A stretch of 28,060 nucleotides of DNA. It comes from Desulfuromonas sp. SDB. GTDB lineage: Bacteria > SDB-A. The number at the start of each line of letters is the position of its first letter. Positions within the stretch are counted from its first letter, which is position 1. Made by a program: the position numbers and the translations under genes. The notes under the pieces were generated by a model. That model saw only the letters and a program-made list of their open reading frames with translations. It searched no databases and was not told the DNA's origin. Where the stretch lies: the NCBI GenBank assembly GCA_001412365.1, contig LKUE01000332.1, positions 1 through 28,060 on the forward strand, written 5' to 3'. This document shows positions 6,116 to 8,884 of this stretch, in pieces.

Positions 6116-7615
6116 TCAGGAGAAGATTTCAAAGTTCATGGTGAAGTCACCGGGCTGACGGGTGATTTCCAGGGAAATTATACCATTATGGTCCAGCCTG
6201 TATTTTTCAGTTACCTCCACTTCACCAAGGTGGTCATTGAACTTAATGGGAACACGGTCAAACTTTTTCTTTCGATCCAAACACTGCTCATAAGGAAAAT
6301 GTAGTGCATTGAATATCCTGATATCCCTGTCTTCTCCGTCATAGCTAGTTAAAGCTCCTGCTTCAAAGAATTTAAGATAACCGATATTGTGAAAGGGACG
6401 GTAGGGACCTTTGGTGAAATACTTATATTTATTGAAATCAGGCAATGCTGTCCCCTTGGGAAAGATTACATCGAAGAATTCATCTTGATGCTGATTGGTT
6501 AAACGGATTACTCCAAGATGCCGGGCAGTGATATTGGACAATTTTCTGGTAAATTCACCTCCGTACATAGCAGCTCCCATTGCCACGGTTTCCAGAGGCA
6601 CGGGAGAAAAGATAAGATTTTTAAATCTTTCCTGAAGAGTAATTCTTACCGGGGGGAATAAAGTCCCTCCTCCGGTTACATAAATAGGAGTATCCGGATG
6701 GGGAAGAATTGACTGGGTTAATTTAACTGCTTTATTGATCAGTTTAAGGGAGTTGATCATCAGTGGCTGGATGTCAACTTCAACGTTCTGATTAAATTTT
6801 TCAGTATTTATATCTTTTAACAACGCATCTAATTTTTCAGGCAGTTTATTTTTATAGTGGATTAAGCTTTCCTTAATTCGCTTAGCTTCCAACTGTAATC
6901 TGTAGGATTCGAAAGAGTTCAAACTGTTTAAGCTGCATCCTGCTTTTTCACAAATTTGATCTATCAGTAACTGGTCAAAACTGTTTCCCCCTAAATTTTC
7001 AATTCCTTCACTGGCTATAACCCTGAAATCTTGTTTATACTTCTCCACCATAGAAACATCAAAGGTCCCCCCTCCTAAATCAAATACGGCAATTTCAGGC
7101 AAACTTGACTGCTGTACCCGGTAGAAGTCCAGAATTGATGCAACCGGTTCGTCCAGTAAGTAAATTTCTCTGGCTAGCTTTGTTTTCTCTGCAGCTTCTC
7201 TTAATACCCATCTATGATTGGATGATGCATTGGCAGGGATAGTGAAAACTGCTTTGTCCACTGGCTGATCTAGCTGCAGGCTGTTTTTAATTGACTGAAC
7301 TACTGCCTGTACAAATTTTTGATAAATTAAAGCCAGATCTTCTCTTTTATTCCCGATTCTGGTGGTAGTGCCTTTGCGGTAATAATTTAGTTTTTGCTTT
7401 AAACTTAGCACCACGTCCTGATCCGGATCTGACAAACCTTGAGCTTCTAAACCGAATTTAAACTGCTGATCAGAATAACAAATGACCGATGGAAAAATAT
7501 TTTCGATGATCTGAGTTGAATTTACCAGGATATAATGGGGTATAATCCGGTAGATGCCTTGGGCAAATAGTACAGCCAGAGTATTGGTGGTTCCAATATC
7601 AATTCCAATAACCAT
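6116..7615 (-). CDS. Hsp70/DnaK-like chaperone ATPase lacking the helical lid
   Basis: 499 aa against about 630 for DnaK. The actin-like ATPase domain (about 1-355) has phosphate-1 GIDIGTTNT (4-12), connect-1 LLDEPVAS (153-160), phosphate-2 FDLGGGTFDVS (178-188) and the adenosine motif YVTGGGTLFPPV (312-323). Residues 360-499 resemble the beta-sandwich substrate domain, including YRLDHNGII (472-480) like the FDIDADGIL of DnaK. The helical lid and the charged C-terminal tail are absent. The start ATG (7613-7615) overlaps the stop of the GrpE-like gene by one base, so it is translationally coupled to its likely nucleotide exchange factor. No J-domain gene is nearby. It is a paralogue type rather than the main dnaK. 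Confidence 0.9.
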   Translation of the reverse strand: MVIGIDIGTTNTLAVLFAQGIYRIIPHYILVNSTQIIENIFPSVICYSDQQFKFGLEAQGLSDPDQDVVLSLKQKLNYYRKGTTTRIGNKREDLALIYQKFVQAVVQSIKNSLQLDQPVDKAVFTIPANASSNHRWVLREAAEKTKLAREIYLLDEPVASILDFYRVQQSSLPEIAVFDLGGGTFDVSMVEKYKQDFRVIASEGIENLGGNSFDQLLIDQICEKAGCSLNSLNSFESYRLQLEAKRIKESLIHYKNKLPEKLDALLKDINTEKFNQNVEVDIQPLMINSLKLINKAVKLTQSILPHPDTPIYVTGGGTLFPPVRITLQERFKNLIFSPVPLETVAMGAAMYGGEFTRKLSNITARHLGVIRLTNQHQDEFFDVIFPKGTALPDFNKYKYFTKGPYRPFHNIGYLKFFEAGALTSYDGEDRDIRIFNALHFPYEQCLDRKKKFDRVPIKFNDHLGEVEVTEKYRLDHNGIISLEITRQPGDFTMNFEIFS

Positions 7616-8007
7616 TATTTTATCTCCACCGTAGCCTTTATGATAACTTGACCCCTTCGGGTTTTGTAACCGGGAGAGATAACTTTCAATATAATTCCTT
7701 TCTTTTTCCGATTACGGTTTACATGGAGAAGAGAGCTGAAGGTATCCCCGGGCTTTACATTTATCTCCTCTAATTCTGCAAATTCAAGCAGCTGTTCTAT
7801 CAGCGGTTTTAAAGATTTGGCTATCTCCGTAGTTTTTCTTAATTTTTGGTATTTGGAGGCAAGCATGGCCAGAGGAATTAAAAATTTTTCCATTTCCGCT
7901 CTCAGCTGGTCATCAGCGCTTTCTCCGGATAAAACAGTGTTTATATTTACAGTTGGCTTATATAATGTTTTTGAGTGGCTTACTTCTTTTTTTCTTTTTT
8001 TTGGCAT
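7615..8007 (-). CDS. small GrpE-like nucleotide exchange factor
   Basis: 130 aa, against about 170-200 for typical GrpE. Residues 36-95 are predicted helices (LRAEMEKFLIPLAMLASKY, then LKPLIEQLLEFAELEEI) resembling the GrpE four-helix-bundle region. The C-terminal part, GDTFSSLLH (87-95) and then KGIILKVISPGYKTRRGQVI (103-122), follows the GrpE pattern in which FDPxLHEA is followed by G-x-V-x-x-V-x-x-x-G-Y and GRVIRPA. The long N-terminal coiled coil is missing and the first 15 residues are basic. AGGAG lies 5 nt before the ATG. Its coupling with the Hsp70-like gene strongly supports a role as that protein's exchange factor. Identification is by pattern and context, so moderate confidence. 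Confidence 0.7.
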   Translation of the reverse strand: MPKKRKKEVSHSKTLYKPTVNINTVLSGESADDQLRAEMEKFLIPLAMLASKYQKLRKTTEIAKSLKPLIEQLLEFAELEEINVKPGDTFSSLLHVNRNRKKKGIILKVISPGYKTRRGQVIIKATVEIK

Positions 8008-8114: not shown

Positions 8115-8297
8115 ATGCCTTATGTACATGTCAGAGTAGCCGGTGAGCTTACCCTTGAGCAAAAGAAATTGATTTCTCAGCAGATGACCGAAGTTCTTTC
8201 CGAAGTGGCAGGTAAGCCTCCTTCGGTGACTTATGTGGTAATAGAAGAAATTAAACGGGATAACTGGGCAGTAGGAGGGAAGTTACTATCCCAGTAA
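8115..8297 (+). CDS. 4-oxalocrotonate tautomerase family protein
   Basis: 60 aa, the normal size for these tiny beta-alpha-beta subunits. Pro directly after Met is the catalytic general base of the family. EQKKLISQQMTEVLSEVAG is the amphipathic helix, and VVIEEIKRDNWAVGGKLLS matches the C-terminal consensus, with Trp at the place of 4-OT Phe50. In an ungapped alignment to classical 4-OT, Arg11 is Leu and Arg39 is Tyr, so the real substrate is unlikely to be 2-hydroxymuconate. A subgroup with the same TYVVIEE...NW pattern is widespread. AGGAGG lies 6 nt before the ATG. It may be co-transcribed with the ankyrin lipoprotein 23 nt downstream. Confidence 0.9.
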   Translation: MPYVHVRVAGELTLEQKKLISQQMTEVLSEVAGKPPSVTYVVIEEIKRDNWAVGGKLLSQ

Positions 8298-8320
8298 CTA
8301 AATTTAAAATGGAGATGGAT

Positions 8321-8884
8321 ATGATTAAAGTTATTAGAATATTGATTTGCCTGGGTCTGATAGCTTCTGTATTCTCATGTAAGAAAAAGTGGCCAGAAGG
8401 ACTGAGTGATCATTTAATCTCTATTATGGAGAATTACGACCTGTACCGACTTGAAGATGAAAATACCGATGGTCAGTCTCCTCTCCACATTGCCGCTGCT
8501 TTTGGCACTTCCCAGGAATTGATAGTTGTCCTTGAAAATCAACCGGAAGTAAACGTAAATCAGCAGGATAATTACGGATGCACTCCCCTGTTGTTTGTTT
8601 TAAAAAGCTGTATTGGCAATGGATACTGCTTAACTGAAGATAACAATGCTGAAGGGATTGACAATTTGAAAAACATCGGAATTCTTGTGGAAAAAGGAGC
8701 TGATTTAAATTATAGAACCACTGATGGAAAGACCGCTCTGACCTTAGCTCAAGAGCTGTGTGATAAATTCAATAGATTAATTGAAACCAGCGCCAATGCT
8801 CAGCAACTTCAGGAAAATATGGCTTACTATCAAAGAGCTGAAAAGATATTAAATTATATCAGGGAAAATGGCGGACATAATTAG
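8321..8884 (+). CDS. ankyrin-repeat lipoprotein
   Basis: 187 aa from the ATG at 8321. Two earlier in-frame ATGs exist (8309, 8315), but GGAG at 8311-8314 lies 6 nt before 8321 and overlaps the others, so 8321 is favoured. Residues 1-20 form a lipoprotein signal (hydrophobic stretch ending SVFSC), with Cys20 as the probable lipidation site, followed by KKK. Ankyrin repeats follow: DGQSPLHIAAAFG (about 51-63), then NQQDNYGCTPLLFVL (about 81-95), and LVEKGADLNYRTTDGKTALTLA (about 125-146). The second repeat carries an insertion. The C-terminus is a predicted helix. Ankyrin repeats bind proteins; the partner is unknown and probably periplasmic. Nothing links it functionally to the tautomerase upstream. 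Confidence 0.8.
   Translation: MIKVIRILICLGLIASVFSCKKKWPEGLSDHLISIMENYDLYRLEDENTDGQSPLHIAAAFGTSQELIVVLENQPEVNVNQQDNYGCTPLLFVLKSCIGNGYCLTEDNNAEGIDNLKNIGILVEKGADLNYRTTDGKTALTLAQELCDKFNRLIETSANAQQLQENMAYYQRAEKILNYIRENGGHN

Follow-up and report, generated by a model that had tools for sequence, protein, structure and literature searches.

The window, the whole 28,060-nucleotide stretch of DNA that was analysed, contains on its minus strand two overlapping genes, the first encoding a 130-residue protein and the second a 499-residue Hsp70-like protein. Both open reading frames are located where the first-pass annotation, made from the DNA letters alone, had described a divergent Hsp70 coupled by TAATG to a small gene. 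The junction reads ...ATAAAATAATGGTT, and one base is common to the stop codon of the upstream gene and the start codon of the Hsp70 gene. The features of the locus are listed below in window coordinates.

7615..8007, minus strand: putative mini-GrpE gene (130 residues, first of the pair); open reading frame with a sub-threshold match to PF01025 at residues 65-129, homologous neighbours, and a profile match with E 1.3e-6
7969..8007, minus strand: basic N-terminal tail, MPKKRKKEVSHSK, seen in the sequence; similar starts occur in coupled relatives
7780..7917, minus strand: two predicted helices (residues 31-52 and 59-76) at the place of the hairpin of the canonical GrpE four-helix bundle, from the GrpE alignment; the DSSP assignment comes from a low-confidence model and has little weight
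7618..7755, minus strand: predicted GrpE-type C-terminal domain, GDTFSSLLH ... PGYKTRRGQVIIKATVEIK, from alignments and profile comparisons
7613..7617, minus strand: TAATG junction, where the mini-GrpE stop overlaps the Hsp70 start, seen in the sequence
6116..7615, minus strand: lidless Hsp70 gene (499 residues); open reading frame with a match to the Pfam HSP70 family (PF00012, E 7e-24) and a model with pLDDT 88.4
6548..7615, minus strand: nucleotide-binding domain (NBD), residues 1 to ~356, with the ATPase residues kept
6119..6547, minus strand: SBDbeta-like C-terminal domain ending where the lid of DnaK would begin, from alignment and from a structure alignment reaching residues 499/506
8115..8297, plus strand: tautomerase of 60 residues (PF01361, E 1e-16), divergent from the pair and given as context only

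A small lipoprotein-like ankyrin-repeat protein, encoded at 8309-8884, is also divergent from the pair. As the first-pass annotation had noted, the window contains no CIRCE element (up to three mismatches allowed), and the promoter-like and terminator-like matches around the pair were not above the shuffled expectation. A Pfam scan of the 22 window proteins detected no J-domain.

In the genome (3.14 Mb in 433 contigs, 98.7% complete), grpE, dnaK and dnaJ are grouped on contig C343. Therefore, the pair is not the housekeeping set, and that reading of the locus is ruled out, in agreement with its original description as a dedicated module. The same description had the pair working without a J-protein, which is true of the locus and not of the genome, where two J-proteins are encoded, DnaJ and a second one on contig C209. 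The contig with the pair probably belongs to the genome, because the window TrmFO is closest to those of the family relatives G001 and G003 (54%); contamination of the bin is thus not favoured. Neither gene of the pair was found in the family relatives G001-G003; the phylum is sparsely sampled, with four genomes. The genome also contains a stray DnaK-IIB fragment, an 86-residue open reading frame (C323:1413-1673; L004:1413-1673) that matches only subdomain IIB of Hsp70 (PF00012 positions 227-295; ...ITADKNGPKHL...).

The window Hsp70 scored 88 bits against the DnaK equivalog (cut-off 648) and 116 bits against the HscA equivalog (cut-off 708). Its predicted structure, calculated from 25 sequences (pLDDT 88.4, pTM 0.89), has DnaK as the best Foldseek match. 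VIA-align 2 placed residues 1-499 of the model on residues 3-506 of DnaK (4b9q), with 447 residues aligned, an rmsd of 3.0 and a Z score of 36.1. This alignment indicates that the NBD and SBDbeta are both present and that the protein ends at the start of the lid. According to the model, the window Hsp70 is composed of NBD and SBDbeta, without the alpha-helical lid and C-terminal tail of the ~640-residue DnaK. All seven ATPase residues are kept (D8, T11, T12, K70, E171, D194 and T199, DnaK numbering). By sequence comparison with hhalign, only the last strands of SBDbeta align. The C-terminal domain contains, at residues ~405-418, the signature YRPxHNIGxxxFxE (also written YRPxHNIGHFRFxEC), which is common to the subfamily described below. 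V436 of the DnaK peptide pocket is replaced by an invariant histidine in 31 of 31 subfamily members in a MAFFT alignment; this replacement is a lead only, because hhalign did not reach that divergent region.

When the whole window Hsp70 was used as a query, it matched mostly DnaKs and other Hsp70s, and a first scan of the genome contigs with it gave no match. The last 150 residues retrieved a small set of proteins of 500-525 residues. A profile search of 386 genomes identified five such members besides this genome, and further ones were collected from the phyla of the first matches and from named assemblies (Acidobacteriota, Myxococcota, Lambdaproteobacteria and a PVC-labelled group). When 50 Hsp70s were placed in a maximum-likelihood tree, 31 subfamily members separated from DnaK, HscA, HscC and other paralogues with support of 100/100, and the branches between the subfamily and DnaK are longer than one substitution per site. 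The window Hsp70 is a member of this distinct and rare subfamily, for which the versions of NCBIfam and Pfam searched contain no separate name. Its exact place among the 31 compared members is uncertain because its branch is long (2.15). The members are 489-543 residues long, which suggests that none of them has a lid.

A survey of gene adjacency, as suggested in the first-pass annotation, showed the same arrangement in two further, distant lineages. A GrpE-domain gene is positioned directly upstream of the subfamily Hsp70 in G267, G386 and G387, which belong to one phylum, and in L087, L090 and L091, with the two genes overlapping or separated by at most 3 nt. Including the window, seven members in three lineages are coupled. 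The other 24 members form one clade (100/100), and wherever the upstream region was examined, no GrpE-like neighbour was present; some of the uncoupled loci were cut by contig ends or carried overlapping spurious open reading frames. Since all seven coupled members are outside the 24-member clade, the coupling is probably ancestral. The simplest reading is that the genes were paired in the ancestor and that their linkage was lost once, although the coupling may instead have been gained several times or transferred.

The chaperone had been proposed to serve one client or a membrane process, and the genomic context does not bear this out: neighbours differ in every lineage, so that no common gene provides a clue to a client. 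They are the tautomerase and ankyrin genes in the window, a glgB-like gene in L087 and L091, oligoribonuclease-like and phosphofructokinase-like genes in Lambdaproteobacteria, and various genes in Acidobacteriota. The glycogen-branching-enzyme-like gene of L087 and L091 is ~50 nt or less downstream of the Hsp70 gene. In the lambdaproteobacterial L093 and L096, the stop of the Hsp70 gene and the start of the oligoribonuclease-like gene overlap; the phosphofructokinase-like gene comes next, and there is no GrpE nearby. The genomes G386 and G387 each contain five GrpE-domain matches, including one more short one (L124 and L126, on G386:C52 and G387:C60; 155-175 residues) that has no known Hsp70 partner.

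The first-pass annotation had assigned the C-terminal half of the 130-residue protein to the type of GrpE, the factor by which Hsp70s are recharged with ATP. Residues 65-129 match positions 96-163 of the GrpE profile (PF01025) with E 0.01 and 16.0 bits, under the curated cut-off of 25.8, and the identity is 27% over a short stretch. Among the upstream neighbours of the other coupled Hsp70s, three score above this cut-off (G386, 40.6 bits; G387, 37.1; L087, 28.4) and two below it (G267, 25.2; L091, 19.5). A profile of these five neighbours, built without the window protein, gave the window protein as its top match (E 1.3e-6; best of 2000 shuffles, 0.085), and a combined profile matched it with E 9e-8. 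A profile of four other GrpEs alone did not pick it out (E 0.55). When the six mini-GrpEs were compared with the four other GrpEs profile to profile, the probability was 95% (E 2.5e-8; control 0.2%). The best PDB match of the mini-GrpE profile is M. tuberculosis GrpE (E 1.9e-4). The AlphaFold model of the 130-residue protein, based on an alignment of four sequences, has a pLDDT of 41, too low to establish a GrpE fold. A PDB search with the single protein returned chance matches only. Judged by its sequence, the 130-residue protein carries a GrpE C-terminal domain, as had been proposed.

The 130-residue protein appears to retain only the part of GrpE that corresponds to the four-helix bundle and beta domain, together with a short basic tail. 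Its length can accommodate a pair of short helices and the beta domain, but no long stalk after the ~30-residue tail. Of the five other GrpE-like proteins that are coupled, L087, G267, G386 and G387 have Lys/Arg-rich starts and L091 has a weaker one; the basic starts of the coupled proteins read MPKKRKKEV, MIKKKKIKRK, MMISRKKKIRRKK, VSRKKKVRRKR and MKAKIKK. The N-terminal tails of E. coli GrpE and of the genome's own GrpE are acidic. The N-termini of the other GrpEs of the same genomes are mostly acidic to neutral, with exceptions, and because of these the basic tail is a trend and not a proof. Lys/Arg-rich tails are also found at the C-termini of the uncoupled acidobacterial Hsp70s L077, L080, L086, L088 and L095, where they recall the basic tails of the mini-GrpEs.

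Both co-chaperone contacts of the window Hsp70 are unusual. R167 of DnaK forms a hydrogen bond with the aspartate of the J-domain HPD motif (PMC8215388). It is kept in 3 of 31 subfamily members, whereas 15 of 16 other Hsp70s have it, as do E. coli HscA and HscC. Q378 is kept in 4 of 31 members and D393 in 10 of 31, with mostly E elsewhere; the VLLLD linker is not kept. At the linker, R167, Q378 and D393, the window Hsp70 has RKLSN, Y, Y and N. The usual J-protein contact may thus have been lost in this branch of chaperones. On the GrpE side, the window Hsp70 has neither the K55-E267 nor the R56-E264 salt bridge. R56 is kept in the Hsp70s of L087, L090 and L091, and the loss of the salt bridges is not certain in every member because two alignments place those columns differently. 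The GrpE-signature loop is deleted in ~29 of 31 members, comprising six of the seven coupled and most of the uncoupled ones; the window Hsp70 has a loop of similar length and different sequence at this site. The same losses of salt bridges and loop in HscA and HscC were used in a 2021 review to argue for the lack of interaction with GrpE (PMC8215388). An exchange role cannot be read from these residues. The earlier designation of the small protein as a private exchange factor is plausible from synteny, but the window Hsp70 has no such salt bridges and most members lack the loop, both of which are marks of DnaKs that respond to GrpE.

There is a precedent for an extra Hsp70 with a GrpE to itself, namely the grpS-mxdnaK2 pair of Myxococcus xanthus, in which MXAN_6671 is presumably the gene called sglK. 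The operon is bicistronic, with MXAN_6672 (GrpS) ahead of mxdnaK2 (MXAN_6671), and the two gene products interact (PMC11019930); GrpS is also described in PMC10313047. The window pair fits this type, a non-housekeeping Hsp70 with an adjacent GrpE-domain gene: in both organisms, which also have a housekeeping set, the gene of a second Hsp70 is immediately preceded by that of its own GrpE, and the resulting two-gene operon includes no J-protein. However, mxDnaK2 is a DnaK-type paralogue and GrpS has a conserved GrpE domain (PMC11019930, PMC10313047), whereas the window Hsp70 belongs to a separate lidless subfamily and its partner has 130 residues. A GrpE-domain gene is also directly or closely upstream of the HscC-like Hsp70s at L012, L008 and L035 (581, 590 and 531 residues), but in the tree these cluster with HscC of E. 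coli and other Hsp70s, outside the window subfamily, and their GrpE domains are nearer full length. At L008, a 489-residue protein carries the GrpE domain as its C-terminal part.

The pair shares with housekeeping DnaK-GrpE the ATPase residues, the predicted NBD and SBDbeta fold and the GrpE C-terminal domain, and differs from it in the absence of the lid, the VLLLD linker, the J-contact residues, the cleft salt bridges and room for the long stalk. Like HscA and HscC, the window Hsp70 is specialised and has lost the cleft salt bridges and the GrpE signature of the loop. In contrast, HscA and HscC keep the lid, R167, Q378 and D393 and have dedicated J-proteins and no exchange factor, which is the reverse of the window pair. 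What is new is the combination of a separate lidless subfamily, a much reduced GrpE with a basic tail, and degenerate J-contact residues. We found no paper describing this combination in a literature search of incomplete coverage.

Based on these comparisons, a mechanism can be proposed. We consider it somewhat better than an even bet that the pair is a dedicated two-part chaperone, in which the lidless Hsp70 works with its own reduced GrpE-type partner and the mini-GrpE drives ADP release. In the complex from M. tuberculosis, the four-helix bundle and beta domain of GrpE shift lobe II of the NBD, and the long N-terminal helices displace the SBD (PMC10803776); the N-terminal tails of E. coli GrpE visit the substrate site of the SBD (PMC12915176). 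The mini-GrpE would dimerise via its short helices, and its beta domain would enter the NBD cleft of the paired Hsp70 and drive ADP release. The lidless SBDbeta would grip the client loosely, and because of this loose grip nucleotide exchange would set the release step and a long stalk displacing the SBD would not be needed. The basic tail may tether the complex to an acidic surface, such as nucleic acid, the ribosome or an anionic membrane, or visit the SBD as a pseudo-substrate. Canonical docking of the J-domain would be weakened or lost. The lack of a lid and the reduction of the mini-GrpE favour NBD opening with the basic tail tethering the complex or visiting the SBD. This proposal, in which the exchange role of the mini-GrpE is inferred, is favoured by the housekeeping set on another contig, the recurrence of the pair in three lineages, the tree, the profile matches, the lidless model, the degenerate J-contact positions and the precedent from Myxococcus. 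Against it count the missing salt bridges, the deleted loop, the sub-threshold GrpE match and the low-confidence mini-GrpE model, as well as the uncoupled members, which evidently function without an adjoining mini-GrpE.

The main rival is a pure tether without exchange activity, which we regard as possible though distinctly less likely. The GrpE-like protein would be an adaptor that holds the Hsp70 through its GrpE interface, its basic tail leading to nucleic acid, ribosomes or membrane, and nucleotide exchange would be intrinsically fast. The losses of salt bridges and, in most members, of the loop, as in HscA and HscC (PMC8215388), are consistent with such an adaptor, and so are the basic tails of most coupled mini-GrpEs and the C-terminal tails of the five acidobacterial Hsp70s, as if the tail had moved to the chaperone. 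However, the conserved part of the small protein is the GrpE C-terminal domain, which opens the DnaK cleft; R56 is kept in three coupled Hsp70s, and the salt-bridge columns depend on the alignment. It is improbable that the pair simply duplicates the general chaperone system and acts with DnaJ on the same clients: DnaJ and one further J-protein are available in the genome and the ATPase residues are intact, but the lid is missing, the J-contact positions and linker are degenerate, and more than one substitution per site separates the subfamily from DnaK. It is even less probable that the 130-residue protein is an unrelated small partner resembling GrpE by chance, as its sub-threshold Pfam score, 27% identity, low-confidence model and E 0.55 with the four-GrpE profile might suggest, since it has the same position and coupling as clear GrpE-domain proteins in two other lineages and was matched by the profile built without it (E 1.3e-6) and by the combined profile (E 9e-8).

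Returning to the two-part chaperone with an exchange factor, we speculate, as a tentative and fairly unlikely extension, that the window Hsp70 represents an undescribed subfamily with a private exchange factor, no canonical J-domain stimulation and an open lidless SBDbeta, placed by its basic-tailed mini-GrpE on nucleic acid, ribosomes or membrane. The specialised bacterial Hsp70s HscA and HscC are reported to have co-evolved with their own J-proteins and to have given up nucleotide exchange factors (PMC8215388). In contrast to this pattern, the window subfamily lacks the lid, has degenerate J-contact positions and, in its deep lineages, retains a dedicated GrpE-type partner. If true, the J-independent reading would be the opposite of the rule for specialised bacterial Hsp70s, which is to retain a J-protein and dispense with the exchange factor. 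With 499 and 130 residues, the pair is a small natural system for asking what the lid, the J-protein and the GrpE stalk each do.
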